Below are positions 18,664 to 57,891 of a stretch of DNA of 64,000 nt, in pieces (positions within the stretch are counted from its first letter, which is position 1; each line of letters opens with the position of its first letter). The DNA comes from Isoetes taiwanensis (Eukaryota; Streptophyta; Lycopodiopsida; Isoetales; Isoetaceae), in the NCBI GenBank assembly GCA_021234155.1, contig JAJEKV010000071.1, positions 2,429,138 through 2,493,137 on the forward strand, written 5' to 3'. Below the pieces are notes generated by a model. The model saw only the letters and a list, made by a program, of their open reading frames with translations. It was not told the origin of the DNA and made no database searches. The translations under genes were made by a program, and so were the position numbers.

Positions 18664-20318
18664 TGTGACGTCCCCTACTCGTACACGATGCCCGCACTGT
18701 ATACAAATAGGAGTTCATCCCCCATACCAGCTCCACACTGATACAGGGCCCTCCACAATCACTGCACCCGTAACGAGTCCCAGTGGGAAGAGTGAAGGGG
18801 TCATTTTACCCCGTCTCCCTCAGGGCCTACCTAGCTACGGAAGTGTAAACATACATGTCAGTATACAAGAGCATCACATATCCACCTCTAGGGTGGTACA
18901 TCACATCTGCATAGACAATGATCAGCACAATGCATAAGGGAAATCCTACCCAAGGTTCAGACACAGGGATGGACTGACAAGCTTGGGTCTCCAGAGTTCA
19001 TTGCAGACAGAATTCATGGCAATGGATTTGGCTGGCATAAGAACATGGCATTGGGTTGTCCACTCCATCCGCCCCTCCTGTGCACACTTTGCAGAGTAGG
19101 CTGAAAAGTGTTGGGACCTGACTGTAGCTCGCCGGGTGCATAGCCAAAGGGGCTATTCCTGGGTTGCATCTCCCCAGTCCCGATGGAGCAGGTAGGGATC
19201 ACTCCCCCCAGAGATCTCCATGCTGACTCAAGGTGACTAGAGGGCCACTGCCCTTATTCGACTGAACCCACTGGAAGGTGAACCCCACCCCACGGGTGTC
19301 GAGCCCATGCCCTGCCCGCACTCAGTGGCAGGCCATTAGACCTAGTCACAATGATCCCCGGTAGCACTAACACACCATAGGGATCGTTCAAGAGTCAGAA
19401 CACGAATCTCCTTCTTAGCCAGTCTGGCCCCTTCACCCACAACCAGCTGGTGTGGTTCTTGTACACAGGCCGAATCTATAGTGTGCTAGAGAGGCTAATC
19501 TAGGAGCATCTACTACCAAGCTTTAAGTCTCTACCCCCCTTCCTAATACAAGGAGTTCATAGAGATACATCATCCATATACATCACAGAAGAACTAAAGA
19601 ACTATATCTAATCTATATCATAGAGTTAGGTTCTTTAGTTAGAGTCTGCTATCTAGAGATCTAGAGGGCTGCTATGGGCAATTTAATATGCTAAACCTAC
19701 TGATTCAATGACTAGAAGATGGTTTAGGCTATTAAATTGGCGAAATACCTAATCCTTGAGTTCCTCCTCCTGACCTGAGTTCGACCATCCTGCTGAAATG
19801 CTCGAATCAAGGGAAATTAATGGTGCAATTCTCTCAGACAGAGTCTGGGAGGCGGTTTTGACCCTTGGGGCAGCCAAAACAGAGCTTTAAAACCCTAGAA
19901 ACGAAATTGGGCAAGTTAGGGTTTCCCTCCCTAAATAGACAAGGGGGTTGGTTAGGGTTTCCAATTATCCCCTTTAGGCATGTGGGATAATTGGGAATGG
20001 CCCCACTTGTCTTAAATGTCTAGGTGGCATAAATACACCTACATGGAAAGGTGTGCACTTAAATAAATGTGCACATTGGTAAATGTGCACATTAATTGCA
20101 CACTTGGGTATGGCCTGTCCACATGGGAAAATGTGCACCTAGATAAATGTGCACATGGGTAAATGTGCACATTAATAAATGCACACTCCTTGCAAGTTGC
20201 CCCCTAGGGGCTACCCGCCTGGCTATACGTCGGCGTACACGTCAGTCGGGGTGGCGTGTACGCGTGACGGGGCAGTATAGTATACGTCTGGGACCGTATA
20301 CTGTGCTGGAACGTCACA
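18664..20318 (-). mobile_element. LTR of a Ty3/Gypsy-type element (minus strand, 3' LTR)
   Basis: On the minus strand the LTR begins TGTGACGTTCCAGC at 20318 and ends ...GACGTCACA at 18664, giving TG...CA ends and a length of 1655 bp. It is a diverged relative of the plus-strand LTR at 31474-35851 (1570 bp without its Helitron): the starts (TGTGACGTTCCAG, then TATACGG), the block around 18935-19560, and the ends (TTTGTATAC, CGGGCATCGT) align in reverse complement. A polypurine tract lies immediately before it, so it is a 3' LTR. The internal region is expected to the right, but no coding was recognised there. No 5 bp duplication of the outer flank could be tested without the other LTR. Confidence 0.72.
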
Positions 20319-34439: not shown

Positions 34440-35852
34440 TGTGAATATAATATCCTTTTGCCATGTGGCAATAGCCCATTGACCAATCAGGGCCCAGCCC
34501 TAAAGTCGTGGGGATAAAGAGGCATAAACCCTAAAAGGGAAACCCTTTCAGTCACCAGCCCCCATAAGTCAGATTGGAGCAGCAGTGGACGTTTTCTCGC
34601 GTGAACAGTAGCAGAGGAACCGACATTCCTTAGTAGCAGCTCGATCCAAGCCAGCAATCTCGAGATTCAGCAGCATGGACGCCTTCAGAGGAGTGGGAGC
34701 CAGCCAAGAAGCCGGTTAATGGTTGATCCGATAGTTAGATCCGAGTTTTCAGCCCTCATTCCATAGGATTAGTGTTCATTCTTAGCTATAGGCGACCCCT
34801 ACCTAAGAATGATAGATACTAACAAAGGAACATAACCATGTATGATTAGGTAGATTAGAATAGATGTATTCTATTGTTTCAGTTCTGTTGTGATGATATT
34901 GTGACATTCTATGCGCCACTCTTGTGTATTGGGAAGGGGGGTAGAGACCCAGAGCCCAAGTAGTTGTATGATCATAGTTTTAGCCCATTAATTCCCAATT
35001 AATGCGGCCTGTGCATAAGAGCCCGCCTGGCTGTGGGTGGAGGAGCTAGATCGGCTGACAAGGGAGGGCTTGTCTAATCACGGTTGATCCCGTTGGCGCG
35101 TAAAGACGGCCGGGGAGCGCTGTGAGCTAGGCCTAATACCCTGGCACTGTGTGAGGGTAGGGTATGGGCTCGACACTCGTGGGGTGACGCGTCATCTTCC
35201 AGTGAGTTCAAGTCGTATACGAGCAGTGGCTCTCTAGCTCGCCCGTGGATAGCATGAACCTCCTGGAGGAGAGAGATCTCCTCCTGCCTCATTGGGACTG
35301 AGGAGATGCAACCCAGTAGTAGTAGCCCCCCTGGCTATTCACCCGGCAGGCTACGGTCAGGCTCCAATACTTTTTCAGCCTATCTGCATAGTATGCACAG
35401 GAGGGGCGGATGGAGTGGACTACCCAACGGCCATGTTCCTTTGCCAGCCAAATCCATTTGCCATGAATTCTGTCTGCATTGCTCTCTGGAGACCCCAAGC
35501 TATCAGTCGATCCCCATGAGTCTGAGCCTGGGTAGGATCTTCCCTATGTTATGTTGATGTACTGATGTGTGATGCAGTTACTGTGATATGGTGGACCACC
35601 CTTCGAGGTGGGTATATTATTATTGCTTGATGTTATGTGCTCATGTTTTGTTTACGCTTCTTCCGTTGCTAGGTCGATCCCGAGGGAGACGGGATGAATG
35701 ACACGTCCATTCTTCCCCGTCGGGTTCTTGGCCACCATCGAGGGCCCGATGTTAGGTGGACGGCCTCACATCAGCGGGCAGATGCTGGTTTGAGGGATGA
35801 TCTCCAGTTTGTATACGATCGGGGCATCGTATATGAGCCGGGCCGTCCACAA

Positions 35853-35870
35853 TGGTATCGAGCTCGATCT
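35853..35870 (+). promoter_or_regulatory. Primer binding site, initiator Met-tRNA type
   Basis: One base after the LTR end, TGGTATCGAGCTCGATC resembles the plant retrotransposon primer site complementary to initiator tRNA-Met (TGGTATCAGAGC), with one base missing or changed after TGGTATC. Its position fixes the LTR boundary and the element's direction. Confidence 0.7.
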
Positions 35871-36107
35871 TGGCGCACTGGATCGAAAGAATCGCCCAAA
35901 ACCCTATAGGGACTAACTCATCTAGACATTCAGTCTTGGAGGTAAAAGCCCAAGCACAAACCTCGAGTAGCGGGAAAATTTTTTTCTCCCGGGGTAGAGT
36001 TAGTAATTATCTAAGATTAGGATAAATAGAGAACATAGATAAGATAGAACAAACAGTCGAAAAAGCGCTTAAAAGATCCTACTAAATTTCAAGCACTTTT
36101 GGCCAAT

Positions 36108-36174
36108 GACTCCAAGAGTGCACCAGGAGCATGTTAGGTTCAGACCTAATGGCCCTCTCGCGCACTCTTAGAGT
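36108..36174. repeat. Hairpin repeat 1 (upstream of H3-like gene)
   Basis: GACTCCAAGAGTGC at 36108 pairs with GCGCACTCTTAGAGT at the right end. Inside the loop TTAGGTT/GACCTAA (36134-36149) forms a second stem. First of five copies of a two-stem cruciform-like unit of ~67 bp. Confidence 0.85.
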
Positions 36175-36321
36175 AGTCACCCCATATGAACCCTAGAACT
36201 TGGCCTTAAGAACCCCAAATGGTAAAATAAAAGATGAAATCCCAGTTAAAATGCTCGAAATAGCTAGAATTTTATCCTGAAACATCGAAAAACATTAAGT
36301 ACAAGTCACTTTTGGAACAGT

Positions 36322-36389
36322 GACTCCAAGAGTGTGCCAGAGTATAGTTAGGTCCCGACCTAACCCCCCCCTCGCGCACTCTTAGAGTC
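36322..36389. repeat. Hairpin repeat 2 (upstream of H3-like gene)
   Basis: GACTCCAAGAGTG... TTAGGTCCCGACCTAA ...CGCGCACTCTTAGAGTC. The outer stem is ~16 bp with a single mismatch, the inner stem 7 bp around CC. The surrounding DNA is not duplicated to the same degree. Confidence 0.88.
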
Positions 36390-36532
36390 GTCCCTAAAAG
36401 TGACCTCAAAAATTGATTATAAATTACTCAAAGGGTCAAAGTAATAATAGGATCTTGCTTAAAATGCTTAAAATAGTGGGTAACAACATGTAAATTGTGT
36501 AAATTGGATGTGTTGGAGCAGAGAAGGCCAAC

Positions 36533-36599
36533 GACTCCAAGAGTGCGCCAGACCATAGTTAGGTCCCGACCTAACCCCATCCTCGCGCACTCTTAGAGC
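36533..36599. repeat. Hairpin repeat 3 (upstream of H3-like gene)
   Basis: GACTCCAAGAGTGCGC at 36533 pairs with GCGCACTCTTAGAGCC ending at 36600; inner stem TTAGGTCCCGACCTAA. It lies 224 bp before the ATG of the H3-like gene. Confidence 0.88.
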
Positions 36600-36822
36600 C
36601 ATTCGAAGAAGCAGGAGCAAACAAGACCCCAATTTCGCCCAAGATGAGGAGACTTTCGCCAGCAAACTAACCAGAAGACTAAATCGATCGAACCCTAAAA
36701 ATTCAACCCTAAAAATTACGGGACATAGGCTCATTTTTTTAGGGTTTCTCCCGTGCTTCCACGAGCTCCTTCTGATTAGCCGAACTTTTGGCGCCCTGCT
36801 CCAAATCAGACGCTGTCATACA

Positions 36823-38003
36823 ATGGCTAGGACCAAACAAACCACCCGCAAGCCAAAGAAGGACGATAGACCCAGCGCCCAAGTGCTCGCCGCTGAACAG
36901 AAGCTCAAAGATGCTAACGACAAACTGAAGGCTGACATGGAGAGGCGGCCTAGGTATTACAGGAATTTGGAAAAGAGGCGCAGGAAAGAAGAAAAGGCCA
37001 GGAAGAAAGAAGAAAAGGCAAAGAGAAGAGAAGAAAGAGCCAAGAGAAAGGAGGAGAAAGCGAGAAGAAAAGCAGATGAGGAGGTTGCAGAAGCAGAAGA
37101 CGACCAATGGCGAGAGCAAAGAACCAAGAATAGAGAGGATCCCGACCCCAAAGGAAAAAGGGTAATGACTGAAGAACCCCCACCTAAGAAGAGGAGAACC
37201 TCGGTCGGCGTAACCATAAACGAACCAACCGAAGGCGAACAACCTCCAGCCTCGTCAGAAGACACCGATGATATAGCAGAACTCTTGAGGCAACCCTTCT
37301 CGGAATGGGAGAATCCTCACATCAGAAGCCTAACCCTCGTCCGGACACAGATGAAACGCCGGAGGAAGAACCACTCCCAGCTCAAGATGCAGCTGAGACG
37401 CAGATTGACCTACCTCCGCCATTACCCCCACCATTTTTGGAATGGCAAGAAGCAAAGAAACTAGATGCAGAGAAAGCAGCTGGCAAGAAAGCAACCAAAA
37501 TCGCCCGCGACTCGTACACCTTGGGGCCGGAGAGGAGGTACAAGAAAGAATTAGCAGATTACAAAGTATACAAGAAGATGCACGAGGAATACGTAGCCTA
37601 TTACGAAGCAAACAGGGTCAAAGTTGTCGAAGGAGGGAGGCCAACTCGAGAAGCATTCCAGCTCAAACCTCCGCCAGAACTGCCAGAACCCCCCAAGAAG
37701 CCTATGAAGAGATCCCAAGACTCCCCTTTTGCGAGAGCCCTGCGAGAAATCAAACACTTCCAAAGGAGCTATGGATTCCTCATCCCGAGAGCAGCATTCC
37801 AGAGGTTCGTCCGAGAAATCTTGTGGGAGTTCGACCCCAACAAGCAAGTAACCAACGACATGTTACTCGCTTTACAAGAAGCAGTAGAGATGGAGGTCGT
37901 ACATCATTTCGAGGATTCATTGGCATGCACTCTCCATGCAAAAAGAGTCACCCTTCAACCAAAGGATATGAAACTGGCTAAATACATCAAGAGGAGAGAC
38001 TAA
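36823..38003 (+). CDS. Histone H3-like protein with H3-tail mimic and ~300-residue inserted region (one frameshift)
   Basis: The ORF opens with MARTKQTTRKPKK: residues 1-9 after Met equal canonical H3 (ARTKQTARK) except A7 to T, and S10 is replaced by P. A long Arg/Lys/Glu-rich segment predicted to be helical or coiled follows (~residues 20-95), then PPPKKRR (a likely nuclear signal) and an acidic, Pro-rich region. A +/-1 shift around 37272-37330 moves reading from the 36823 frame into the frame that ends at 38003. The last ~88 residues (37737-38000) are a complete H3 fold: ARALREIKHFQ, FLIPRAAFQRFVREI, LLALQEAVEMEV, FED, HAKRVTLQPKDMKLA. Loop 1 has the canonical H3 length, unlike CENH3, although HFQ and LIP-A-F are CENH3-like. 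Composite length is ~390 residues versus 135 for H3. It lies between a primer binding site and a chromovirus body on the same strand. The frameshift may be a base error or a pseudogene mark. Confidence 0.85.
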
Positions 38004-38146
38004 TAGAAGGGAAATTACCTTTTTGTAACTAACAGGGTTATATGTGATGTATGAAATTTTGAATAATAAAGATATATAGTCGTTTAAAAATGTGCATTCA
38101 TTAGGTACAGTATTAGTTTTTGAGCAATTGGGGTAATTTGACCAAC

Positions 38147-38214
38147 GACTCCAAGAGTGCACCAGAGCATAGTTAGGTCCCGACCTAACCCTCTCCGCGC
38201 GGACTCTTAGAGTT
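38147..38214. repeat. Hairpin repeat 4 (downstream of H3-like gene)
   Basis: GACTCCAAGAGTGCACC ... TTAGGTCCCGACCTAA ... GCGCGGACTCTTAGAGTT. It lies 144 bp after the stop codon of the H3-like gene. Confidence 0.85.
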
Positions 38215-38357
38215 ATCCAGCCAACTGGAACAGTCATTAGACCTACTTGCTCCAAACCGGGTAAATAAACAAAGAAACTCGCATTTAGGAAGAAAACTAA
38301 AAGGGAATTACCCCTTCCACCGCATTTTTTGGATCCATTTGACAGCAATAGGCTAAC

Positions 38358-38425
38358 GACTCCAAGAGTGCGCCAGAGCATACTTAGGTCCCAACCTAAC
38401 ACCCCCCTCGCGCACTCTTAGAGTC
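38358..38425. repeat. Hairpin repeat 5 (downstream of H3-like gene)
   Basis: GACTCCAAGAGTGCGC ... TTAGGTCCCAACCTAA ... GCGCACTCTTAGAGTC. It lies just before the start of the first chromovirus unit at 38475. Confidence 0.86.
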
Positions 38426-38527
38426 GCCCAACCTTCCCAAGTTCATAACTTGAGCTAGACAAACTTTAGCCTTCATCCCAAATATCAGGAGTTTTAGAAA
38501 CCCTAAAAATTTTAGGGCATAAATTCC

Positions 38528-38536
38528 CTATATATA
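38528..38536 (+). promoter_or_regulatory. TATA-like element upstream of ORF1, unit 1
   Basis: CTATATATA lies in a block (AAACCCTAAAAATTTTAGGG through ATACCCGTATAACC) conserved in all three units, ~120 bp before the ORF1 start. Equivalents are at 45141-45149 and 59272-59280. A TATA box at this distance suggests ORF1 may be transcribed from inside the element. Inference from motif only. Confidence 0.4.
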
Positions 38537-38648
38537 CCCGTATAACCCCTAAACCTCAACCACAAAGATTGCTCCCCGCGATTGAGGCGATCTCCCGGCT
38601 TACTCAAAGGCTCCCGGTTCCGCTTGATATCGGCAAACAATTCTCGCC

Positions 38649-40170
38649 ATGGCTACGTAATCTTTCATCGGTTGGTATAGCCCCCACGCTTTGAAGTAGA
38701 TGTCAATATAGTATTCCAAGTATTTCAAAAAGAATTTGACCTTTCAGCAACCCTGAACTCCAATCCTTTCTACCAGCAAGTCCTGCAAGAATTCCAAGAG
38801 AAAGTTATCCCTAGCTTACAGAAGATACCGCCATGCATAGGGTACTTTGTACCAAGGACCCAGAATGATGCAAAGCGGCCCTCGGTCATGTACCCAATAT
38901 TGCCAAAGTATTGCGGAACGTAACCAACCGCTTACCAGCCTACATGACCCTAACCAAAGAATGGAAAAGTTTTCTCCTCCTACAACACTGACCTTTAGCG
39001 ATATATCTAGTATATAGGGTCAAACCATAATAGGCTTAACCATCAATTCAGCCACCGGAGGTCACACCCTTGGACGCAAAGTTGATTTAACGACTACCGC
39101 CGGAGTATGAAGAGACCATAGCGTAAGCATCCGAGAGAGTGAAAACTCCGAAAGGTGAAAAGCGAGGATGACATAGAGGTGGACCCAGAGGGGGAACGCC
39201 GGGCGAACAAGACATCACCCGCCTCGAAGCCGACAGACCACCCCGAGGATTGCACAACCAATCGGGTTGGGAATAACAAGTTTAGCACCAATCATAGTCG
39301 AAGGACAAGAATACTTGCCGCTAAATGACATCAAAACCTCCCCTAAATCAGGGGACAGAGGGCTACCGTTGTTGATCTAACTCCTTCACCATCTACGGAG
39401 ACAGCCGGATTTAGAAGACTTCATTGACCAAGAAACTGAAGATTTTCCGTGCAAACACGAAGCGCCTACTTACACAGATACACCATGCTCCGGACATTGA
39501 AGCTTACGGCGCTATCAGAGGTATGATGACGGAAGAACTCCCTACCGAGGAGGAGTTTAGAGCACTTCAAGAGCAGATGGGAATAAGGGGGAAGACAACA
39601 AGAGTACTTCAAGGGGAGTCTTCTTCCTCGCAAGAACAGTAGCAAAATTCCAAGGAGAGCCACAAACCCGACAAGTGTACCTAACGCTCTTCCGGGATTA
39701 TAAGGAATTAGTTCAAGTACCCATCGACAAGATTATCGCCAAGGCACGTGGGTACCTCAGAGCACGTGGAGGAGTACGAGAACAGCAAAGACTCAAATAT
39801 TATCTTCCGCTCCTAATGCATCGGTAGAGTAATAATATTTCACAAGCGCCAGCCCACACGAGAGGAAGCCGCGGCAGATGCTAGTAGCACTTTCGGGATT
39901 TGGCATGCACGCACGCTTATCAGAAAAAGTCGACCATGTTATTTTGGTGAAGCGGAAAATAGCCTTGGGCATTTTCGACTTTGCAGTACCACACCTTCGA
40001 CAAGGTAGGTTAGTAAAGGACAAAGAGCTCATACCTCCCATAGACGGGTGGAAGAGCTAGCATCCGCCATCCGAGGGGGATCAGCAAGGGATATACTCAG
40101 GAACTTGGGAAGTACAGTAGGTACAGCCAAAGTAAAGAAGTTCCTTGAGGATCACCCAGACTATCAGTAA
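38649..40170 (+). pseudogene. ORF1 of chromovirus unit 1, degraded
   Basis: Aligns with the longer ORF1 of unit 3. The start codon is followed after three codons by a TAA and there are many small indels and losses. The 3' end is the best preserved part (stop at 40168-40170). Function unknown; see unit 3. Confidence 0.65.
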
Positions 40171-40328
40171 ATCAATGTAATGGAAATCATGACTACTGTA
40201 TTAAGATATATCGGCTATATATATTAATATAAGACCCTTTTTGAATTGCATTTCAAAATGTCTTTTTGGTATCGTTGTCTTAACAATCATATCATTTAAA
40301 CACCTAATGCAACCAACAAAAGGAACTC

Positions 40329-43300
40329 ATGATAAATGGTGCCAATGTAATATGTGCAGTCAGAGCAGCTAGGAATGTCGACCTTGAGTTCCAAGCCCAA
40401 GGCGATCAGACACCTCTCAGACAATTCCAGCCTCGGGAACTATTCGAAGAGTATTACGCACCGACACCGGAAGAAGAAATCTCGCAGATGAGGTCAGATC
40501 TGCAAGAAATCAAAGCCATGCTGGTAGGCAGAGGAAGAAACAAGCAGGACCAGAATGTACAGGTCCCAGAGGCCCGTTCTCAGCACAAAGGAAAGGAGAA
40601 AAAGAGGAACCGACCCAGATCTTCTAGTTCCAGCTCTTCCGACAGCTCGGATTCAAGCTCGAAGTCCGAGGAGGAAACAAGAAGAACGGCCCGAAGGAAG
40701 AAAGAATAACGGAGGCAGCAAGGCCAATCCGACTACCGTAAGAAGGTCGATTCGCTTTAAGTAATGTTTGAAAGCACGAAAATGGAACAGCTTTTCCGCT
40801 TAAAAACAGATCGTGGATGGAAGTCAAGCATGGCTAGACGAGATGAGTGAGTACGGAAATGCTTACGCATGAAAGATAAAGATAATGGCAGTGGTAGCCA
40901 CCGCTAACTTGAAAGGGGCAGCCCGTATTTGGTGGAGGGGTTATGCTAAAGCCCATGGAATGAGCAGAGACAAGTGCAGGTTCACAAAGTTCGCAAGGGC
41001 CTTCAAAAAGCACTATGTTCCAAGAGAACACAAGTGCCACCAGATGCAAGCATTCCACAGATTGCAACAGGGGAACAAATGCATTGAAATATACGGAAGA
41101 GTTCATGAGGTTGAGGCTATATGTGCCAAAACTCAGCGAGAGAAGAGCAGTGGAAGGCTATCTGGAGGGGTTGAATGAGGACCTATGGAAGATAGTCCGA
41201 GCCCTCAACCCACGCCAAGATTCGGAGGCTTGAAGCTTAAGGCACCGAGCCTACAAGGGACAGGCCTCGTAAAAGTGAACCCAAGCAATTGGTATGACAA
41301 AGGAAAAGCATATGGAGGTCGAGCCCAAGAGCAAACAGTCCATCGCCTGCAAAGACACCATACACCGGAAATCAATGGAAACAGCCAGAGAAAAAGCAGG
41401 TCAGCTTCAAAGAGAAAGGACAAGGGGAGGCTCAAATTATTCAAAAGACAGTCAAGTAGTTCCTCAACTCCATCCCGAAAAGAAAAGCGGCAGGAATGTA
41501 TAGAAAAACAGTTGAAGCTTAGGTGTTTCCAAGTGGGGCATAGAACACACAACCGCCTGCTCAGTAATGAATGCAAAGACTTTATGAGATGGGAGGTTGG
41601 GAGACCCAAACATGTAAGAAGAGGAGGACTAAAGACGCTTAACTATATCCATGGTGAGTGTCACATCTTTGCCGCCATAGACACGTAAAAGCGCAGAGAG
41701 CCGCATACCAAGTAATATCCACGATTGGTAAAATAGCCGCCAAATCTTTTATAGTCCTCATAGATCGTGGCGCTCCCACAATTTCGCCACCAAGGATGGC
41801 ACAAATGCTAAAGTTGAAAACACTAAAGTCTAAGCCTGCACCAAGAGTAGTGTTAGCCGAGCCATCATAAGCACACGGGCCGGCAAGAGGGTGAATTTCA
41901 ATCTAGACTTACCGGGTATCAATATTGAAATGGGAGCAGAGATCATGAGCATAGGAAAATATGACCTCATCATAGGTATGGAATACCTCAATCCGGCGAA
42001 AGCACAAATAGATTGTGGAGAGCGGAAGGTGAAGCTCACGGCGCCTAACGGGAAAATCATAGAAATCTCAGGTAAGCAAGTGACACCTATAATGCAATGC
42101 ATGTCGAGTAAGAAATTACTTAGATGCATCAAAAGGAGCAAGTTGCATACATCTTCAAATTAGAACTTGCGAAGAAGAAGAGGCACCAGAAGATAAGGAA
42201 GATAAACCAAGAAGCAAACTTGTAGTAGCCAAGCTAATAGAGGAATTCCATGACTTGTTCCCCGATGAAATCAAGGAGCTTCCGCCATATAGGGGAGTAG
42301 AGTGCTAAATTGCACTTTCGAACTGTGCACTAAGCCCACGCAGTAAGGCACCATATAGAATGACAGCTCACCTAACTATCGAGTTGAAGAAGCAATTGCA
42401 AGAGCTATTAGACCTAGGGTTCATAAGACCTAGTGTCTCCGCTCGGAGCCCCCATATTATTCGGCCAAAAGAAAGATGGAAGCTTGAGGATGTGTATTGA
42501 CTATCGCCAATTAAACAAACACACAATCAAGAACAAGTATGCCTTACCCTGAAGCGGATGACCCGATGGATCAATTACAAAGCGCCGTGGTCTTCCAAGA
42601 TAGACTTAAGGTCCGGATATCATCAAATCAGAATCAAAGAGGAAGATATTCACAAGACGGCCTTCCAACAAGATACCACCACTATGAATTTGGCCATGCC
42701 ATTTGGCCTATCAAATGCCTTCAAAGAACGTTCATGAGACTCATGAACGATATCTTTCGAGAATTCCTTGACACATTTGTTATCGTGTTCTTCGATGACA
42801 TTTTGGTGTATAGCAAGTCCCTAGAGGAGCATATTCAGCACTTTAGAAGGGTACTTGAGAAGCTGAGAAGACACCAGCTTTATGCGAAGTTGTCGAAATG
42901 TCATTTCGCCACCGAAAGAGTGGAATACTTGGGGCATATCATATCAGCAGACGGCATCTCCACCGATCCGGCAAAGATCCAAGCAGTGATTGAATGGCCA
43001 GCACCAAAGAACATACACGAGGTGAGAAGTTTTTTGGGCTTAGCAGGATATTATAGAAAGTTCATCAAGAACTTTGCTAAGATAGCAGCACCCTTAACGG
43101 ACCTTACCAAGGCAGAAAAGATAAAAGACTGGGTGGCACATTGGCAAAAGAAGGCTCAAGTAGGATTTGAGAAGTTAAAGGAGGCCTTAACAACCGCCCA
43201 TGTCTTAACATTGCATGATCCAGAGAAGGACAAGCTAGTCGCAACTGATGCGAGCAAGATTGCGACGGGAGCAGTCTTAATGCAAGAGGAAAGAGTCGTA

Positions 43301-45135
43301 GCATACGATTCACGAAAGACGAATGACGCAGAGACTCGCTACCCGACACATGATCAGGAGCTATTGGCAGTAGTAAGAGCTTTAAAGATCTGGAGACACT
43401 ATCTATTGGGAAGGAATTTCCAATTAGATACCGACCACCAGAGTCTGCAGTACATCTTCACGCAACCATTGTTGAATTTAAGACAAAGAAGATGGATGGA
43501 GTTCCTCGAAGAGTACGACTTCGAGATTGTATACAAGCCAGGGAAACTCAATGTGGTCGCAGACGCTCTATCAAGGCACCCCTTAACAACAAGGGTGCAT
43601 TGCAATGTCATATCAACACTTACCAGTGAGTTTGGCAAGAAAATAGAAGAAACGCTGCCAACAGACAAGGACTTCCAGGAAGTATGGGCTAGCCTCTCTA
43701 AAGAGGCAAGAAGGGACAAAGAGAGAGAAGCCTTCAAACATTTTAAGAAGGAAGGAAAGCTCTTGTACCATAAAAATAAGTTGTGTGTGCCGGAATCATC
43801 CGGAGTCAGAAGGTTGATTCTCCATGACACCCACAACAACCCAATAGCCGGCCACGCAGTTTTTTTAAAACCTACTTCAAGATAAGAAGTAGTTACTATT
43901 GGCCGTGCATGAAGAAGCAGATAGCAAGGTACATACGCGAAAGTGTCAGCTATGCCGCCCAGACCAAAGCGAACAACTACTAAATCCGTGAGCATTAGAG
44001 CCATTGCCGCACCAAACTCCAAGTGGGAGATAATAAGCATGGACTTCATTACAGTGGCTCCCTAGAACCATAAGGGGCAAAGATGCCTTAATGGTCGAGT
44101 CGACAAATTGTCGAAGATGGCGACTTTGTGCCTTTGTAGGAGCACCGACACGGATTAGACAAATGGGTGCTATTCACTAAGGAGATTTTTTAGACTCCAT
44201 GGGATGCCAAGAGAAATAATCTCTAATAGAGATTTGAAGTTCATGAGTGCATTCTGGCAGGATCTCTTCAGCACCATCGGAACGAAATTGTCAATGAGCA
44301 CGGCTTATCACCCTCGCATGATGGGTGACGGAGCGCACCAATTGGATACTCGAAGATATGGCGGAATTATGTCCGAACAAGAATCAAAGTGGGATGACTT
44401 CATTTACTTGGTTGAGTTTGCATACAATAGCACCAAGCAAGAGTCATCCCAAATGTCGCCGATTTATGATCAACTACGCTATCGATTGCTTGACACCGCA
44501 CACTTGGCACAACCCCATTGTCCAAGGTAGAAGTATCCCAGGATGATACCGTAGAGAGATGCAACAATTGGTTGAAGAGGTGCGAGGATACCTCCCAGCA
44601 GCAAGAAGCCGGCAAAAGAGCATAGCTGATCTAAGACCTAACAAAGAAGGGAGTTCCAAGTAGGGGACAATGTTTGGCTAAAAGATAAAAGTCAAACAAG
44701 CAAAGCTCGCGATCGGCCATTGCAAGAAGCTTGCTCCAAGGTGGGCTGGTCCATTTAAAATTGTCAAAAAGAGTAGGTAACCAAGCCTACAAATTGACTT
44801 ACCAAAGACACCCTCAAGATCCATAGAGTCTTTCACGTAAGTCTCCTAAAGAAACACACTCCTAATCCAGAGGAAGTATTGGAGACACCGAAGTTTATTG
44901 GAATTAACGGACGATCAACTTGAGATTGTTCCCCAGGTTCTTCTCGAATCCATCTTATAAGAAGACGGTAGAAGATCTCAATTTCTCCAAAGACCTTGTG
45001 AAATGGACGACTTACCAATGGAGGACGCCACTGGTACTACAATCGATCTTGAGAAGCATTACCCACAATGCAAGGGTCATGCAAGGGTCATCCCAAATGT
45101 CGAGTTTTAGAAACCCTAAAAATTTTAGGGCATAA
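40329..45135 (+). pseudogene. gag-pol of chromovirus unit 1, multiple frameshifts
   Basis: Polyprotein of a Ty3/Gypsy chromovirus. Gag N-part (40329-40709) has a Ser/Arg-rich end. A capsid-like segment with GAARIWWRGYAKAHGMSRD follows (40885-41178). The zinc-knuckle and protease regions are frameshifted. The longest intact piece, 42539-43885 (448 codons), covers RT from before the FFDDILVYS active-site motif (residues ~84-91), RNase H with an ATDASKIATGAVL start, and the first part of integrase with HDTHNNPIAGHA. Integrase core and the C-terminal chromodomain follow in broken frames up to a stop at 45133-45135. The enzymes copy element RNA to cDNA and insert it. Not functional as read. Confidence 0.85.
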
Positions 45136-45259
45136 ATTCCCTATATATACACGATAACCCCTAAACCTCAACCACAAAGATCGCTCCCGCAATTGAGGCG
45201 ATCTCCCGGCTTACTCAAAGGCCCCGGGCCTGCTCGAGCATCGGCAACACAATTTCGCC

Positions 45260-46787
45260 ATGGTTACGTAATCTTTCATCGCTTGGTATAGCCTCCCCCG
45301 CTGTTGAAGTAGATGTCAATATAGTATTCCAAGTATTTCAAAAGAATTTGACCTTTCAAAGCAACCCCTCAACTCCAATCCTTTCTACCCGACAAGTCCC
45401 GCAAGAATTCCAAGAGAAAGTTATCCCTAGCTTACGTAAGAAGATACCGCCATGCATAGGGTACTTTGTACCAAGGACCGCGAATGCAAACAAATTTCAG
45501 TCATGTACCCAATATTGCCAAAGTATTATGGAATGAACCAACCGCTTACAGCCTACATGACCCTAACCAAAGCAATGGAAAAGTTTTCTTCCTCCAACAA
45601 CAACCTTTAGCGATATATATCTAGTATATAGGGCCTAAAACCATAATAGGTGAACCATCAATTCAGCCACCGGAGGTCACACCCTTGGACGCCTTGTAGA
45701 CCTAATCAAGCATCGGGCTTGAGTATGAAGAGACCATAGCGTAAGCATCCGGGAGAGAGTGAAGACTCCGAAAGCAGAAAGCGAGGATGACATAGAGGTG
45801 GACCCAGGAGGAGGAACGCCGCTTTGAACAAGACATCACCCGCTTGAAGCCGACGGGACCACCCCGAGGATTGCACAACCAATCGGCCTGGGAATAACAA
45901 GTTTAGCACCAATCATAGTCGAAGGACAAGAATACTTGCTGCTAAATGACATCAAAAACCTCCCCGAATGCAGGGACAGAGGCTACCGCGTCGACGAACT
46001 CCTTCACCATCTACGGAGACAGCCGGATTTAGAAGACTTCATTGACCAAGAAACTGAAGATTTTCCGGTGCAAATATGAGAAGCAGCTACTTACACAGGA
46101 CACACCATGTCGGACATTGAAGCTTACGGCGCTATCAGAGGTATGATGACGGAAGAACTCCCTACCGAGGAGGAGTTTAGAGCACTTCAAGAGCAGATGG
46201 GAATAAGGGGGAAGACAACAAGAGTACTTCAAGGGGAGTCTTCTTCCTCGCAAGAACAGGTAGCAAAATTCCAAGGGAGAGCCACAAACCTGACAAGTGT
46301 ACGAACGCTCTTCCAGGATTATAAGGAATTAGTTCAAGTACCCATCGACCAGTATGCGTCAAGGCACAGGGGTACCTCAGGAGCACGTGGAGGAGTACCG
46401 GGAACAGCACTCAAATATTATCTTCCGCTCCTAACAGACGGTAGAGTAATAATATTTCACAAGCGCTTCAGCCCACACGGAGAGGAAGCTGTGCAGATGC
46501 TAGTAGCACTTTCGGGATTTGGCATGCACGCACGCTTATCAGAAAAAGTCGACCATGTTATTTTGGTGAAGCGGAAAACAGCCTTGGGCATTTTCGACTT
46601 TGCAGTACCACACCTTCGACAAGGTAGGTTAGTAGTGACAGCAGCTCATACCTCCCATAGACGGGTGGAAGAGCTAGCATCCGCCATCCGAGGGGGATCA
46701 GCAAGGGATATACTCAGGAACTTGGGAAGTACAGTAGGTACAACCAAAGTAAAGAAGTTCCTTGAGGATCACCCAGACTATCAGTAA
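45260..46787 (+). pseudogene. ORF1 of chromovirus unit 2, partly open
   Basis: The start codon is followed by a TAA at codon 4 and the first half is frameshifted. The second half (46107-46787) is open for 226 codons and gives the C-terminal part missing in unit 3: it starts MSDIEAYGAIRGMMTEELP and ends KKFLEDHPDYQ. No known domain. A mid-region KYYLPLLTDGRVIIFHKRF is conserved in unit 1. Confidence 0.65.
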
Positions 46788-46945
46788 ATCAATGTAATGG
46801 AAATCATGACTACTGTATTAAGATATATCGGCTATATATATTAATATAAGACCCTTTTTGAATTGCATTTCAAAATGTCTTTTTGGTATCGTTGTCTTAA
46901 CAATCATATCATTTAAACACCTAATGCAACTAACAAAAGGAACTC

Positions 46946-49900
46946 ATGATAAATGGTGCCAATGTAATATGTGCAAATGAGCAGCCTAGGAATGTCTAAC
47001 CTTTGAGTTCCAAGCCCAAGGCGATCGACACCTTCTTCGCATTAATTCCAGCCTCGGGAACTATTCGAAGAGTATTACGCACCGACACCGGAAGAAGGAA
47101 TCTCGCAGATGAGGTCAGATCTGCAAGAAATCAAAGCCATGCTGGTAGGCAGAGGAAGAAACAGGCAGGACCAGAATGTACAGGTCCCAGAGGCCCGTTC
47201 TCAGCACAAAGGAAAGGAGAAAAAGAGGAACCGACCCAGATCTTCTAGTTCCAGCTCGACTGGCTGGATTCAAGCTCGAGTCCGAGGAGGAGGAAAAGAA
47301 GAACGACGGGAAGGAAGAAAGAATAACGGGAGGCAAAGAAGGCCAATCGACTACCGTAAGAAGGTCGATTCGACCTTAAGTAATGTTTGAAAGCACGCAG
47401 CCGGAACAGAAGCCCGCGAAAAACAGATCGTGGATGGAAGCGGGCTAGCATGGCTAGACGAGATGAGTGAGTACGGAAATGCTTACGGCATGAAAGATAA
47501 AGATAAAAGGTGGTAGCCACCGCTAACTTGAAAGGGGCAGCCCATATTTGGTGGAGGGTTATGCTAAAAGCCCATGGAATGAGCGAGAGACAAGCGCGTG
47601 TTCACAAAGTTCGCAAGGGCTTTCAAAAAGCACTATGTTCCAAGAGAACACAAGTGCCACCAGATGCAAGCGCCCACAGATTGCAACATGGGGAACAAAC
47701 TCCCGACTGAAATATACACGAAGAGTTCATGAGGTTGAGGCTATATGTGCCAAAACTCAGCGAGAGAAGAGCAGTGGAAGGCTATGTGGAGGGGTTGAAT
47801 GAGGACCTACGGAAGATAGTCCGAGCCCTCAACCCACGCTCAGTATCGAAGGCGGAAGCGAAGGCACTGAGCCTACAAGGGACAGGGCCTCAGAAAAGTG
47901 AACCCAAGCAGTGGTATGACAAAGGAAAAGCATATGGAGGTCAGAGCCCAAGAGCAAACAGTCCATCGCCTGCAAAGACACCATACACCGGAAATCAATG
48001 GAAACAGCCAGAGAAAAAGCAGGTCAGCTTCAAAGATAAAGGACAAGGGGGAGGCTCAAATTATTCAAAGACAGTCAAGCAGTTCCTCAACTCCATCCCG
48101 AAAGAAAAGCGGCAGGAATGTATAGAAAAACAGTTGTGCTTCCGGTGTTTCCAGCTGGGGCATAGAACACACAACTGCCCGTTCGTAATGAATGCAGCAC
48201 TTGCGGAGATGGGAGGTTGGGAGACCCCGACAGAAGAAGAGGAGGACGAAGGACGCGACTATATCCATGGTGAGTGTCACATCTTTGCCGCCATAGACAC
48301 AGAAAGCGCAGAGAGCCAGTACCAAGTAATATCCACGATTGGTAAAATAGCCGCCAAATCTTTTATAGTCCTCATAGACTGTGGCAGTTCCCACAATTTC
48401 GCGTCACCAAGGATGGCACAAATGCTAAAGTTGAAAACACTAAAGTCTAAGCCCAGACCAGTAGTGTTAGCTAGCGGAGCCATCAGGCACACGACCGGCA
48501 AGAGGGTGAATTTCAATATAGACTTACCGGGTATCAATATTGAAATGGGAGCAGAGATCATGAGCATAGGAAAATATGATCTCATCATAGGTATGGAATA
48601 CCTCAATCCGGCGAAAGCACAAATAGATTGTGGAGAGCGGAAGGTGAAGCTCATGGCGCCTAACGGGAAAATCATAGAAATCTCAGGTAAGCAAGTGACA
48701 CCTATAATGCAATGCATGTCGAGTAAGAAATTACTTAGATGCATCAAAAGGGAGCAAGTTGCATACATCTTCAAATTAGAACTTGCCGAAGAAGAGGCAC
48801 CAGAAGATAAGGAAAATAAACCAGTAAGCAAACTACCCAAGCAGGTAGCCAAGCTAATATTCCATGACTTGTTCCCCAACGAAATCAAGGAGCTTCTGCC
48901 ATATAGAGGAGTAGAGTGCGAAATTGCACTCGAACCAGGCACTAAGCCCACGAGTAAGGCACCATATAGAATGACAGCTCACGAACTATCAGAGTTGAAG
49001 AAGCAATTGCAAGTGCTATTAGACCTAGGGTTCATAAGACCTAGTGTCTCCTCGTTCGAGCCCCCATATTATTCGGTCAAAAGAAAGATGGAAGCTTGAG
49101 GATGTGTATTGACTATCGTCAATTAAACAAACACACAATCAAGAACAAGTATGCCTTACCCGAGGCGGATGACCCGATGGATCAATTACAAGGCGCCAGT
49201 GGTCTTCTCGGTGATAGACTTAAGGTGCGGATATCATCAAGTCGAGAATCAAAGAGGAAGATATTCACAAGAAGAACAAGATCGGCCACTATGAATTCAC
49301 GATCCATGCCATTTGGCCTATCAAATGAACAAAGAACGTTCATAAGACTCATGAACGATATCTTTCGAGAATTCCTTGACACATTTGTTATCGTGTTCTT
49401 CGATGACATTTTGGTGTATAGCAAGTCCCTAGAGGAGCATATTCAGCACTTGAGAAGGGTACTTGAGAAGCCGAAGACACCCCTTTTATACGGTTGTCGA
49501 AATGTCATTTCGCCAATCGAAAAGAGTGGAATACTTGGGGCATATCATATCGCCAGACGGGCATCTCAACCGATCCCAAGAAAGATCCAAGCAGTTGATT
49601 GAATGGCGGCCACCAAAGAACATACACGAGGTGAGAAGTTTTTTGGGCTTAGGATATTATAGAAAGTTCATCAAGAACTTTGCTAAGATAGCAGCACCCT
49701 TAACGGACCTTACCAAGGCAGAAAAGATAAAAGACTGGGTGGCACATTGGCAAAAGAAGGCTCAAGTAGGATTTGAGAAGTTAAAGGAGGCCTTACACAA
49801 CGCCCTGCCTTTAACATTGCATGATCCGAGAAGGACAAGCTAGTCGCGAATCGATGCGCAAGCAAGATTGCGTGGGAGCGCCTTAATGCAAGAGGAAAGA

Positions 49901-50606
49901 GTCGAAAGCATACCATTCACGAAAAGATGAATGACGTAGACTCTCGCTACCCGATACATGATCGTGAGCTATTGGCGTTAGTAAAGAGCTTTTAAAGATC
50001 CGGAGACACTATCTATTGGGAAGGAATTTCCAATTAGATACCCACCACCGAGTCCGGCATTACATCTTCACGCTAACCATTGTTGAATTTAAGACAAAAA
50101 GATGGATGGAGTTCCTCGAAGAAAACGACTTGAGATTGTATACAAGCCGTGGAAAACTCAATGTGGTCGCAGACGCGCTCTATCAAAGGCACCCCCTTAA
50201 CAACAAGGGTGCATTGCAATGCCATATCAACACTTACTAGTGAGTTTGGCAAAGAAAATAGAAGAAACGCCAACAAAGGACTTCCGTGAAGTATGGGCTA
50301 GCCTCTCTAAAGAGGCAAGAAGGGACAAAGAGAGAGAAGCCTTCAAACATTTTAAGAAGGAAGGAAAGCTCTTGTACCATAAAAATAAGTTGTGTGTGCC
50401 GGAATCATCCGGAGTCAGAAGGTTGATTCTCCATGACACCCACAACAGCCCAATAGCCGGCCACGCAGGTTTTACGAAAACCTACTTCAAGATAAGAAGT
50501 AGTTACTATTGGCCAGGCATGAAGAAGCAGATAGCAAGGTACATACGCGAGTGTCAGCTATGCCAGCAGACCAAAGCGGAACAACTACGAATTCCAGGAG
50601 CATTAG
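46946..50606 (+). pseudogene. gag-pol of chromovirus unit 2, 5' part to integrase zinc finger
   Basis: The ORF at 47729-49099 (456 codons) contains the end of capsid (ending DLRKIVRALNPRS), a CCHC zinc knuckle CFRCFQLGHRTHNC at residues 137-150, and a retropepsin-like protease with FIVLIDCGSSHNF at ~212-224 (the common form in plant elements is D[ST]G; here DCG). It stops at the junction to RT because one A is missing in an A-run; RT continues at 49096-49602 (FFDDILVYS). RNase H is heavily frameshifted. The last open piece, 50219-50623, holds the integrase HHCC zinc finger (HDTHNSPIAGHA, ECQLCQQTKAEQ), into which the TIR element inserted at 50606. Confidence 0.85.
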
Positions 50607-50995
50607 AAGCCTTATGCAATTAAATTGAGAGATATGACTCATTTTTGCAAGTGAGAAAATTGGTTCACGCATCAAATTAACATTATTTATAAAACAACTC
50701 ATATTCAATAAAAATTTGAAAAGGAATTTGATGTAGTAATCCATAACTAACAACTATCAAGTAGTACAGTGAATTGTAAATTTTATTCCAATGGACCCGG
50801 ACCCATACATAACATCCGTCCAACATATTCCAACGTATCTTTCACAATATATCTTTCACAATGTCTAAAAATTCCGAGCTTTATTCACGAGTGGTTTTTA
50901 ACCCTTTTTTTTTCTCCTTTTCAATTTGTGTTGTGATCCCTGCATGTAGAAAAACATTGAAACACAAAACGTTTTTAAGAAGCATTATGGAATAA

Positions 50996-53801
50996 CTAGT
51001 AAAGGTGCCCAGCGTTGCTGGGCATAAGTTGGGGGCATGTAAATATTATGGCCGCAATGATAAAAGCGAACCATTACAGACCATGACAAACTCTTCAAGC
51101 CCTTACCAATCGTAATGGCATAAGGAGAAACAATTTCCTATGTAACCTTGTGGCCTAGGTATATGATCTCAAGCTTGTACATTTTAAATGTCCTTTTAAA
51201 TGCAAAAAATTATAATATTAGAGTTGACCCAACATTTAAAATGTCAAGGGTTGTTTGCTCTCACATAGCAAGGGTTCTTTGCTCTCACGTAGCTTTGGGC
51301 AATAATTTAGTCCATTAGTATTTTTGTACCGCTTTTAGTTTGTGTAAGCTTTGTACATAATCGATAAGACTTCGGGATGTTGCTTATGCATGCAAGAAAA
51401 AATATAATGACTTCAGATGTTGCTTATGCATGCAAAGTATTTTGTAAGGTGTTATTATTTATTATCTATGATAATGTTTTTCTATTTTTGCCATTTCACC
51501 ATGGCATTTCAAATAACACCATCAATGTTCTTAAATTTGGTTTTGCATTGGCAATTCAGCCAACATTCGAATCGAATAAAGAATTCCAAAAGTACAATAA
51601 GTGTATCAAGCTTCCAATAAGTACCTGTACAATAAGTGATGCAACCAACTGAACAATCAGATCCACATTTGAGTCACACCGGCATGGTTATATTGCCTTG
51701 TAAGAACTAACAATAACTGCAAGATGGAATGTATTATAAAGAATGAAGAGTACAATTCAAATACTATTGGATGTGCATAAATATCCATAATGTTACAGGA
51801 ATCTCAAATTTTTTACTTCCATGACCTTTTGCTGGATGATATAAGTAGGAATTTCTTTTGTATTGAACTTATGTGGCAGTAGACATAGACTGGCTTGTGC
51901 CAAACGCACAAACTTCTATTTTTCGAAGATCATAGTGCAATTTCTATGAGGTATTCAACCAGACTAAATGATGCAATCCTGAAAAGAGAAACGTCTAGAG
52001 GTTAAATGTTGTACCACAACAGTAGAGAAAATTGTCCTATTCAAGCCCTAGCTTAGCTGTTCAAAAACAAATTAAAAAGCAAAGCAAAGCTTACCCCAAT
52101 TTGCAGCTTCGGATTTAGATTCAGAATAGCTTTTTTTTCCAGTTCAAACATGAATTACTCAGCAAATGTAGGCGTCAATTTAATGTAGACGCCAATTTCT
52201 TTTGAAACAACACAATTGGTTTGTACCGCTTATGGACAGACCTGCAAAGCAACCCACACTAATGATGTGCATCCTAAAAACACATGCATATTATTATGTT
52301 TGCATTATTGATGTAGCACAACAGGCAGAAACTTATTTCAATTGGAAAGCAAACGCACAATAGTTAAACTCCGATAGCTTTATTTATAGTTCAAACATGG
52401 ATTATTCAGATAGCTTTATTTATAGTTCAAACATGGATTATTCAGCAAAATGTAGACGTCAATTTCTCTTGAAACAACATAACTGGTTTGTAGCACTTTT
52501 GGATGGACAGACCTGCAAATCAACCAAACACTAATGACAATTCCATGGCCAGTTTCCATCTCCTAAATAAGATCCCTGAACCTACACTTTTTGCATATTT
52601 ACATCGACATGCTATAATGCCAGAAGAGATTGTATTTACCTTCACACGAAGCAGAAGAAAACTATGCACATGCTGCTGTTCTACACGTTTGCTGGTGATT
52701 TGCTGGCCTGGTGATTTGCTGGCCTGGTGGTTTGTTGGTTTGGTTTGTTTTGCTGCTTTTGTTATAAGAAAATGCAGCGTTAGTTGCTTCAACCTAACAA
52801 AGAAAAGCTTCCAAATCTCTTTATCACGATAGCAAATTACAGTCTAACAGTGGTAGAAATTGATGCATCCTACACAAAGCAAATTAAAAAAATACCTCAT
52901 CTCAGATCCATCCAAGCCAGACATACACTTTCTTAGTCACTGCAGATCAACCCCAATAGGCCAATATTACATAGTGGTTTCCGCCTTTGAGAGACAGGGA
53001 GCCTATACCACCAGCGGCAATTCTGAGATACGAAGGAGCATATACTTCCCCAACTCCAGTTTATCCAGACAATGCCCCACTAAGAAACGACACTGTTTTC
53101 TTCAACAAAACCCAAACGAAAATCAGGAGTCTGGATTCAGAAGATACCCAATCGAGGTTCCAGAGATAGTAGCCATGAATCTGTATTACATGATCTCGCT
53201 AAATATAAGGCCTTGCACTGTAGAAGACTTCGGCAGAATATATCCATGCTAAGTGCTGGACATGGCATCATGCCATTTTATACTTATAATAAGAAGCCAG
53301 AAACCACGCATTCCAGAATCCTGCTTTCTAGAACCATGAACAGAGGTTTTGAGAGATGAACCCTCATTATCAGTTTGTCTCTCCTCCGAATATCTACCTC
53401 AAAGCCAATGACAGGCATGAAGCAACTTGCTTCTCTGGCGAGAAATCCTGAAAAGCCAAGCTAAAAAAAGGCATGAAGTCGCTTGCTTCTCCTCCGGAAA
53501 ATCCTGCAAGCAAAAACGGCCATGGGGCAACTACATGAATCGATCAAGGCCTGGGTTGCTGTGCTCACAGCGGTAGCTAGGGCAAGGAAAAAAAAACGTG
53601 TTTACAGGCTGATGTGGTCATGGCCGTCAGACTCGGAAGGGCTTCGCAGAATAAAGGGCATTTGGACCATCGAAAAAAGAGATTATATTTAAAAAAAAGG
53701 GGCTTTGTTTGGACCCTTCGATCTGGTTAGGCCATCTGTGGCCGTCCGATCTAGGGCTGGATCCAAATCCAGGAATTACGACATAACATTATAATATAGG
53801 A
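50996..53801 (-). mobile_element. Non-autonomous Helitron, copy 3 (2806 bp)
   Basis: Minus-strand copy. CTAG at 50996-50999 after A, hairpin at 51007-51023, and the 5' end (TCCTATATTATAATG on the minus strand) at 53801, with T at 53802. Nearly identical to copies 1 and 2. It is nested within the TIR element, so it is younger than that insertion. Confidence 0.93.
52931..53169 (+). pseudogene. Captured laccase fragment in Helitron copy 3
   Basis: Same segment as in copies 1 and 2, here on the plus strand because the Helitron is inverted: VTADQP at ~52937, QYYIVVSAF at ~52962, then the 60-codon frame 52987-53169 with PPAAILRYEGAYTSPTP. Antisense to the Helitron in every copy. Confidence 0.6.
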
Positions 53802-55847
53802 TAGGATCCCAAATCAATGTGAAATTAGAAATCGCCCAAAATTGCAACTTTGTCTAAAGGCTAGCTGCAAGAGATATAGATAGAGATATAGATAAGGTCA
53901 TTGTGCGCATTATTTTATTGATGATTTCATGCTTAATCTTGTGAGGCAGACATGCCAAACAATGAATGGTCTCAAAATTCTGCAATTCAAATCACAGCAG
54001 TATTGGGCAAAAATCCACGTCCAATCTAATTAGAAAAAAACATGCTCCAAAGGAGGTCTGAACCTGGAATTGATCAAGATGAACATCTGGAGTTTCACAG
54101 GATATGTAGGCTGAGAGAATATATATCCCACATAATAAAAAAGATTGCAGGTTAGAAGGCAGAAGAAATCATGCAGAGGCAATCTTTCCAATTTTGAGCA
54201 AGCAATTTGGAGGACTTGCCAATCTTTCCAATTTTGAGCAAGCAATTTGGAGGACTTGGCACAAGTATCTACGCATCAGGAACCCCTTAAGAAGCAAGAG
54301 AGACTCAAATCAATGTGAGGGCCGTGTATGGGAAGGAATCAACTGCTACTGAAGTGCCATTCTCTGAGTATTTCTAATTTCTACTTTGACCAGGTTCAAA
54401 AGATACACAAGCATCTACCATATATTCTGCTCTTCCATTAAACATAGTCAAGGTAAAAAATTACCTGCAGTAGGTAAAGTAGGTAAAGCTGGAGAACGAA
54501 CAACCAGAAAACGGCAAGATAGAGGCTCAAAAATCATCCCTGCAAATCCGCCAGTCACCAGAAATGTGGTGCATTGGATCGCGGACTCAAGTCCTTGCCA
54601 TCAAGTTCACTTTTTTTTTCTACCATCCCTGACAAGAAAACCCACTTCGTTTTCCACAGTAGATCATTTCTTATAGCATTACACGAACCCGTTCTCATGT
54701 TTTAGAGATAGATTTGCTTCCCTTTTCTGAATTGGTAAAACCAGTCTGAAGATATTATTCTCAGTCAATTTTAGTCCGGATCTTGTTTTACAGATGAAAG
54801 GTAATCCCTTTCGAGAGTTCACATTTTTTTTTCTCATTGAAGCTTTTAGCAGGATCTGAGATACGTGCTTGAGAAACAAGAGATATGAAGCAAAAACACA
54901 TCATCGTTTTTCAGAATCGAGTTAGTTAATATGCATAAGAAAGAACTCATGTAGAATGCGGCAAGATTTGGCAAGACCTACCTTGAACTGGTGCTATCTT
55001 GGACGGATTTCTATAATACCTATCTGGAGATAGTATCCTACATGCCGAATCAGTAGCGCTCCCGCAGAATGACGACGTTTTATCCTTCCAAGAACCCGAC
55101 CTGACATGCAAAAACGCCAAGAAGTTGGGATTCAAAAAATGTATGCTATTTTTAGTGCTTTTTTTGAATTCACAGTAACCTCCTGCGCCACGTACAGAGG
55201 CCCAGCACATGAAGACCGACACAGCGAACATGTATGCCTACACAAGCAGCGAACGCCGAAAAAGTTTTGGAAGCCGGTTTGCATTGGGACAGCCGTTTTG
55301 AATGCCCAGGAGAACTAGAAGCCAAGGACAAAATCTTCTATGGCGCCATCTCAACAGAGTTGAGATCTGTAGAAACTACAAATTTTGTAGTCGGGATTGC
55401 AATGTGGCGCAGGAAATTCCATAAAAAACCTAATGGAGATGGGCTCTAAGGCATCTCTTATATTGCGGAAAGGTGCTTCAAGACCATACGATGGCATAGA
55501 ACAAAATAACATCAGGCCGGATGCAAAAGGTAAACCCTCTCTTTATACTCTTGGGATGCTCTTTTCTTTTCATATTGAAATATTTTCCATGCATTTACCG
55601 TACATGTTTTACCCTTTCACCTTTCACTTGTTGTATTAGATTTGTGTGTGTGGTAATATAGTGGATATGGGCGAGTCAAAATATTTAAATACCATTGTTA
55701 TTGTAATGGTGTCGATGGCTGGGTATAATCCTTCCTTCCATCCCTAGCAATATAAGTGTGACAATTTAGATTGAGTATGTAGCATGGCCAATTGTAGGGT
55801 TCATAGATCATAGCTCGAGCTTATTATATAATTGGCTCCTTATAGAT
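53802..55847. other. Interior of TIR element, unrecognised
   Basis: Contains a ~41 bp tandem duplication (CCAATCTTTCCAATTTTGAG..., about 54178 and 54219) and short ORFs without known domains, for example 55234-55449. No transposase motif was found. Confidence 0.45.
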
Positions 55848-56307
55848 CACGGACTTCAGTCCGTAGTCTCACAAACATTGGACTTGCTTATCACATAGTT
55901 GGCTCCTTATAGATCACGGACTTGAGTCCGTAGTCTCACAAACATTGGACTTGCTTATCATATAGTTGGCTCCTTATAGATCACGGACTTGAGTCCGTAG
56001 TCTCACAAACATTGGCCTTAAATCCATAGTTCAAAATAAATCTCTACACTATGGGACTAAGGTCAAATGATATTTTCGTTGGACTTTCTTGATGTGGATA
56101 TGCTTATCTCCATTATTGTTGGCTCCATAAGATGCATTCATTTCCCCAAGTTCACGGACTTAAGTCCGTAATCTCAAGTTACAACTTATGCTCATTTTTA
56201 GTTGATTGGCTCCATAACATGCATTTGTTTTCTCTAGTTCACGGACTCAAGTCCGTAGCTCAAATTCATATTCTCAACTTGAGTCTAGTTTACGCACTTA
56301 AGTCCGT
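55848..56307. repeat. Array of palindromic ACGGACTTnAGTCCGT motifs
   Basis: Three 67 bp direct repeats start at 55848, 55915 and 55982, each with a palindrome of the form ACGGACTTGAGTCCGT followed by AGTCTCACAAACATTGG. Three further variant palindromes follow at about 56153, 56241 and 56291 with different spacing. Shared flanking words such as TTGGCTCC suggest the irregular copies are older units of the same array. Confidence 0.82.
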
Positions 56308-57702: not shown

Positions 57703-57891
57703 TAGCAAGGACTACGTGCATGTTGGTAATTGTATTAGTTTTACATGATTTAAAAAAAAAACAGAAGTAATTTGGTAATAATTTCAATAAAACTCCCTTT
57801 ACTAAGATAGTAATACTTTTTGCAAGTAGGTTTCTCTTTTAAATGCATTATTCGTTCATCTGTATCTAATCCAGTGATTGTTCCAATTATT

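Follow-up and report, generated by a model that had tools for sequence, protein, structure and literature searches.

The question raised by this locus is whether a histone H3 gene located between the primer binding site and the gag-pol body of an LTR retroelement belongs to that element or only lies beside it. The DNA analyzed, referred to here as the window, is a stretch of 64,000 nucleotides from Isoetes taiwanensis, in which the H3-like coding region occupies positions 36823-38003. The sequence-only reading of this region had proposed one open reading frame, a description that gives way to a pair of overlapping frames, offset by one base near 37.3 kb:

36823..37464, + strand: ORF-A, the H3 tail (MARTKQTTRK) and a Lys/Arg/Glu-rich segment; no Pfam match
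37272..38003, + strand: ORF-B, a helical linker, a proline-rich part and the H3 fold; identified by Pfam, PDB matches, structure model and fold search

The bounds of ORF-B extend from stop to stop, with the first ATG at 37305, and its frame differs from that of ORF-A, which it overlaps by 193 bases. ORF-A begins with MARTKQTTRKPKK, followed by the Lys/Arg/Glu-rich segment, whereas ORF-B comprises the helical linker, a proline-rich segment with a PEPPKK end, and the H3 fold with its terminal HAKRVTLQPKDMKLAKYIKRRD. A single-base shift at 37.30-37.33 kb, the position of which was set by eye, joins ORF-A and ORF-B into a single reading 393 positions long, counting one X where the two frames meet. 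A programmed −1 frameshift was rejected because the stretch scanned contained no strict slippery heptamer (two loose ones were present). The sequence AATAAA at 38065..38070 (+ strand), 3' of the H3 region, may serve as the poly(A) signal for an H3 mRNA.

The region encodes an H3-like histone, and this identification is firm; both the tail and the fold are real, and each is located where the earlier reading had placed it, the tail starting at 36823 and the fold finishing at 38003. ORF-B matched the core-histone family PF00125 (Histone) at 4.3e-22 (79.1 bits, cut-off 26.4) and, among PDB entries, H3 chains at 3e-19. The AlphaFold2 model of ORF-B, built from 27 sequences, had a mean pLDDT of 70.2 and a pTM of 0.35; the three core helices are confident, with block means of 87-94, the first fold helix is lower at 68-76, and the model is poor before residue 80. 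A Foldseek search of the PDB returned 417 matches at E <= 0.001, and the best 50 of the 417 are chains from nucleosome or histone-octamer entries. Nine of the first ten residues match the H3 tail, with A7 replaced by T. No second ARTKQ-type string was found elsewhere in the window by six-frame search for ARTKQ, RTKQT, TKQTAR and KQTARK. Over 89 aligned columns the fold is identical at 41 positions to Arabidopsis H3 and likewise at 41 to Arabidopsis CENH3, and loop 1 has the canonical H3 length. In our alignment, the residues of the H3-H3' contact (H113, R116, D123 and L126) are kept, and R63 and R83 are not. Compared with H3.1 and H3.3, the locus shares nine of ten tail residues, the full histone fold and the HAKRVT and PKD motifs, and differs in what lies between: tail residues 11-38 are not retained, and about 295 unrelated residues, charged, helical and proline-rich, separate the start of the tail from the fold, in keeping with the ~300 estimated previously.

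A second H3 with a long linker is located elsewhere in the window:

14181..14699, − strand: partial long-linker H3 copy with one frameshift; Pfam match at 2e-7 and linker match

Its linker and the ORF-B linker, aligned across 57 codons, gave a score of 87, as against a mean of 30 and a maximum of 56 among 2000 shuffles. Because this diverged copy shares part of the linker, the insertion between tail and fold is a real part of the protein rather than junk. Over the codons of linker and fold, the two copies are identical at 86/151, 89/151 and 54/151 bases for codon positions 1, 2 and 3, respectively, and at only 3 of 23 fourfold sites. Thus, with positions 1 and 2 kept and position 3 near saturation, the two genes are related through an old divergence, and constraint acted on the protein during much of the time since. 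ORF-B is further from ordinary H3 than the second copy, which is identical to it at 49/88 positions. Speaking against such kinship, a tree of the fold alone (47 sequences, 91 columns, weak support) does not place the two as sisters: ORF-B groups with the metagenomic protein P0121 (0.83), whereas the second copy joins P0010 (0.53).

Searches of 5.8 billion proteins, which find only relatives of similar length sharing exact five-residue words, gave 147 hits from 276 candidates (120 listed) and 8 from 593. PF00125 was present in all 125 distinct proteins among the matches listed. The linker was found in none of these 125, for which the best score against the two window linkers was 44, compared with the 87 that these linkers score against each other. 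Searches of viral contigs and of prokaryote-genome contigs yielded no relatives. P0121, a metagenomic H3 of 352 aa, resembles the locus in its ARTK tail, its long insert and its H3 fold (39/88 identical), and differs in having a C-terminal extension and an insert without detectable similarity. As P0121 follows the same plan, H3 proteins with long inserts may be commoner than known. The P0121 cluster has 29 members.

The surroundings of the H3 region comprise the following features:

34442..35851, + strand: 5' LTR (LTR1), 5' end cut by a Helitron, ending ..CCACA; from LTR alignment and sequence
35853..35864, + strand: primer binding site, TGGTATC-GAGC, with one base missing; from sequence
36105..36177, + strand: hairpin 1 (z −4.69, repeat family)
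36322..36391, + strand: hairpin 2 (z −8.70)
36533..36601, + strand: hairpin 3 (z −8.76)
38147..38216, + strand: hairpin 4 (z −4.48)
38357..38426, + strand: hairpin 5 (z −10.15)
38473..45087, + strand: gag-pol unit 1 (chromovirus), frames broken; from Pfam and repeat comparison
45088..59216, + strand: gag-pol unit 2, interrupted at 50612-58121 by 7.5 kb of inserted DNA; from repeat comparison
59217..63585, + strand: gag-pol unit 3, truncated where a fourth Helitron has its 3' end; from repeat comparison
18664..20318, − strand: second LTR of the same family, TGTGACG..GTCACA; from alignment with LTR1

The order along one strand is LTR, primer binding site, three hairpins, H3, two hairpins and gag-pol. 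The one-strand layout and the distances proposed in the sequence-only reading held: the primer-binding-site-like sequence starts at 35853, 970 bp 5' of the ATG, and gag-pol unit 1 starts at 38473, 470 bp 3' of the H3 stop. The site at 35853 resembles a tRNA-iMet primer site. An ungapped scan for primer binding sites allowing two mismatches gave three places, below chance, and the gapped site at 35853 is not among them. The terminal CA of LTR1 is at 35851 by sequence, whereas the scripts took its 3' end as 35849.

LTR1 and the minus-strand LTR are 72% identical over 1039 columns. The latter is preceded by a polypurine-tract-like (PPT-like) sequence, and no primer binding site was seen after it; these features mark it as a 3' LTR of another element. 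A matching 3' LTR of the H3-bearing element, with an enclosing target-site duplication, was not found in the window, where the gag-pol array reaches 63585 and is cut. Three repeats of 2.8 kb (9306-12126, 31631-34447 and 53803-50995; identity 98.8-99.4%) were considered as LTRs and rejected on their Helitron ends. Helitrons start with TC, end with a 3' hairpin followed by CTAG, and insert between A and T, features present in all three repeats. The copy at 53803-50995 is located within the 7.5-kb insertion, which has terminal inverted repeats and splits gag-pol unit 2. Besides this Helitron, the insertion (50612-58121) has 26-bp inverted ends and a tRNA-Met gene (57633-57707).

The five near-identical hairpins of ~70 nt (36105-38426) all lie between the primer binding site and gag, three 5' and two 3' of H3. 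Within each group they are spaced 211-214 nt apart, about one nucleosome repeat. Each consists of two inverted half-sites, AAGAGTGCGC-n10-TTAGGTC; the window contains 10 such half-sites, every one inside the five hairpins, against a chance mean of 0.11. The hairpins gave no sign of covariation, none of 22 pairs having a change on both sides. Their spacers are mostly unalignable: in 19 of 21 stretch pairs, the observed score was reached by more than 10 of 300 shuffles. H3 and gag have in common a short leader motif of 13 exact bases, a match equalled by 2 of 300 shuffles and, under softer scoring, by 4 of 200.

At least three gag-pol units of ~6.6 kb each follow head to tail over 38473-63585 with no LTR between them. 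Their Pfam domains are RVT_1, RT_RNaseH, SH3_Tf2-1 and Chromo (the chromodomain at 3.3e-9), and this domain content, RT-RNase H and an integrase with a chromodomain, identifies them as a Ty3/gypsy chromovirus. Among the best 120 of 7414 RT-RNase H relatives, those that are named come almost all from land plants, with identities of 44-64%. The frame of the chromodomain runs directly into the leader of the next unit, which contains a telobox-like motif and TATATA. Each unit also carries a 389-residue frame before gag (59290-60459 in one unit) with no Pfam match. The model of this frame (ORF1), with a mean pLDDT of 38.6, was too poor for use. Two of three cage aromatics of the chromodomain, the first and the last, are missing by comparison with the HP1 positions. 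Passages of PMC6317226, PMC3350952 and PMC3059260 describe a chromodomain type without these aromatics in vascular plants from Selaginella on, its ligand not known. The plant chromoviruses with type II chromodomains treated in these passages (PMC3350952, PMC6317226, PMC3059260) share with the present units the Ty3/gypsy RT-RNase H, SH3_Tf2-1, the chromodomain and the missing cage aromatics; they differ in that here an H3 block precedes gag and three gag-pol units stand head to tail without LTRs between them.

Residence of H3 in the retroelement is favored because the hairpins flank H3 and because its base usage is like that of gag-pol and unlike that of the second copy. At fourfold sites, the composition of H3 (149 sites) was not distinguishable from that of gag-pol (674 sites; p 0.075, which is not proof of equal composition), and it differed from that of the second H3, for which the sites are few (53 sites; p 0.0007). 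An A-over-T skew begins at the primer binding site; the LTR shows none. The suggestion that H3 lies inside a retroelement locus is thus favored by the order of parts, the fourfold composition and the skew, and is weakened by the sharp left edge of gag-pol unit 1. Units 2 and 3 have this very sequence edge too, each immediately after a chromodomain, and the edge also fits a gag-pol array located beside an unrelated H3 block. The window contains one copy of the H3-bearing element. The second H3 was considered as another copy of this element and rejected: the nearby LTR, at a distance of ~4 kb, is a 3' LTR, and neither gag-pol nor the hairpins gave a match near the gene. As this element-free copy has part of the linker, the family of stretched H3 proteins is probably older than the element copy at 36823-38003. 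Taken together, the odds are about even that the locus represents the 5' portion of a vascular-plant Ty3/gypsy chromovirus that carries a captured, fast-evolving, long-tailed H3 between its primer binding site and gag, with an older long-linker family behind it.

A possible but unlikely alternative is that part of a long-tailed host H3 mRNA entered the element by random capture, and that the copy is dead and of no use to the element. Captured genes are described as common in plant LTR elements in passages of PMC3726574 and PMC7264820, the H3 region carries one frameshift, and the adjoining gag-pol is broken in many places. Against such a passenger, the 1181 bp of H3 show a single visible shift as compared with about 14 insertions or deletions expected at the private rate of unit 1 (52 private insertions and deletions in 4359 bp; P about 1e-5), and this shortfall may reflect later constraint on H3. 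Among the differences between the gag-pol units, third positions are not clearly overrepresented, 1-bp indels are frequent, and both transversions and transitions are elevated at CG and CHG sites. We infer that these differences look partly like long-read error in methylated repeats; a technical origin is therefore possible for the indel contrast between H3 and unit 1, which sequencing error may distort, and for the shift in H3 as well. The old constraint seen between the two H3 copies also speaks against a passenger, although it may predate the capture.

That the locus is instead a host gene or pseudogene of the long-linker H3 family, ringed by nested transposons so that LTR1, H3 and gag-pol are unrelated, is improbable. 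The second H3 copy lies in DNA lacking gag-pol or hairpin matches, nested elements fill the window and the left edge of unit 1 is sharp, all of which a host gene would accommodate; it would leave to coincidence the hairpins on both sides of H3 between the primer binding site and gag, the element-like base usage and A-skew, and the common strand. A CENH3 carried by a centromere-directed element is very improbable and was rejected on loop 1 length and tree placement: a variable N-terminal part, the letters HFQ, LIP and VTL, and a fold identity to Arabidopsis CENH3 equal to that with H3 are shared features, but loop 1 lacks the insert of plant CENH3s, the ARTKQT start is kept, the two plant CENH3s compared pair together in the tree apart from ORF-B, and the integrase ends in an ordinary chromodomain and not in a CR motif. 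The CR motif is said to mark centromeric elements in passages of PMC3059260.

If the H3 is a captured resident of the chromovirus, a sequence of steps can be proposed. A long-tailed host H3 would have been captured into the chromovirus leader and then kept. The LTR promoter would give rise to an H3 mRNA of its own, ending after the AATAAA at 38065, and the protein would pair with host H4 and join nucleosomes on or near the element DNA. There, the end of the tail (A1 to K9, including K4 and K9) would be offered on a long flexible arm. The later tail lysines of H3 used by silencing enzymes are K14, K18, K23, K27 and K36; these are absent here, and the resulting chromatin may therefore be poorly read and written by the usual silencing enzymes. 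The hairpins may act as cis signals of the leader in packaging, dimerization or expression. Pairing of the H3 tail with the element's own chromodomain appears less likely, since the two missing cage aromatics, together with T7 and P10 in the tail, weakly disfavor the tail as its ligand. The further proposal of a retrotransposon lineage with its own selected H3 and a chromodomain integrase, which would use this histone for self-made, hard-to-silence chromatin or for integration guidance, is doubtful.

Passages of PMC6317226, PMC7264820 and PMC3726574 describe additional open reading frames and captured genes in plant LTR retrotransposons; by the definition in PMC6317226, an eORF-5'F lies upstream of the polyprotein and reaches at least 250 codons. 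The present locus is similar in having an additional forward frame upstream of the polyprotein in an LTR element, and unlike these cases it encodes a histone H3 with its tail. Read across the shift, the H3 frames amount to 393 positions; because of the one-base shift each single frame falls under 250 codons, with 243 for the fold frame and 213 from the ATG for the tail frame. The passages of PMC6317226, PMC3350952, PMC12786077 and PMC3726574, and those of PMC5408684, PMC11963269, PMC7264820 and PMC3059260, name no histone as LTR-element cargo, a statement about these passages that does not claim absence from print. In PMC3726574, PMC5408684, PMC11963269 and PMC7264820 the word histone occurs 0 times, and in PMC6317226 once, on H3K9.

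Were the H3 to move with the element, the protein by which hosts silence a retroelement would come from that retroelement itself. Element and silencing would then be in a conflict open to direct test, and histones would join the cargo of LTR elements. Even without co-mobility, a conserved long linker separating tail from fold in plant H3 proteins would represent a new H3 architecture.
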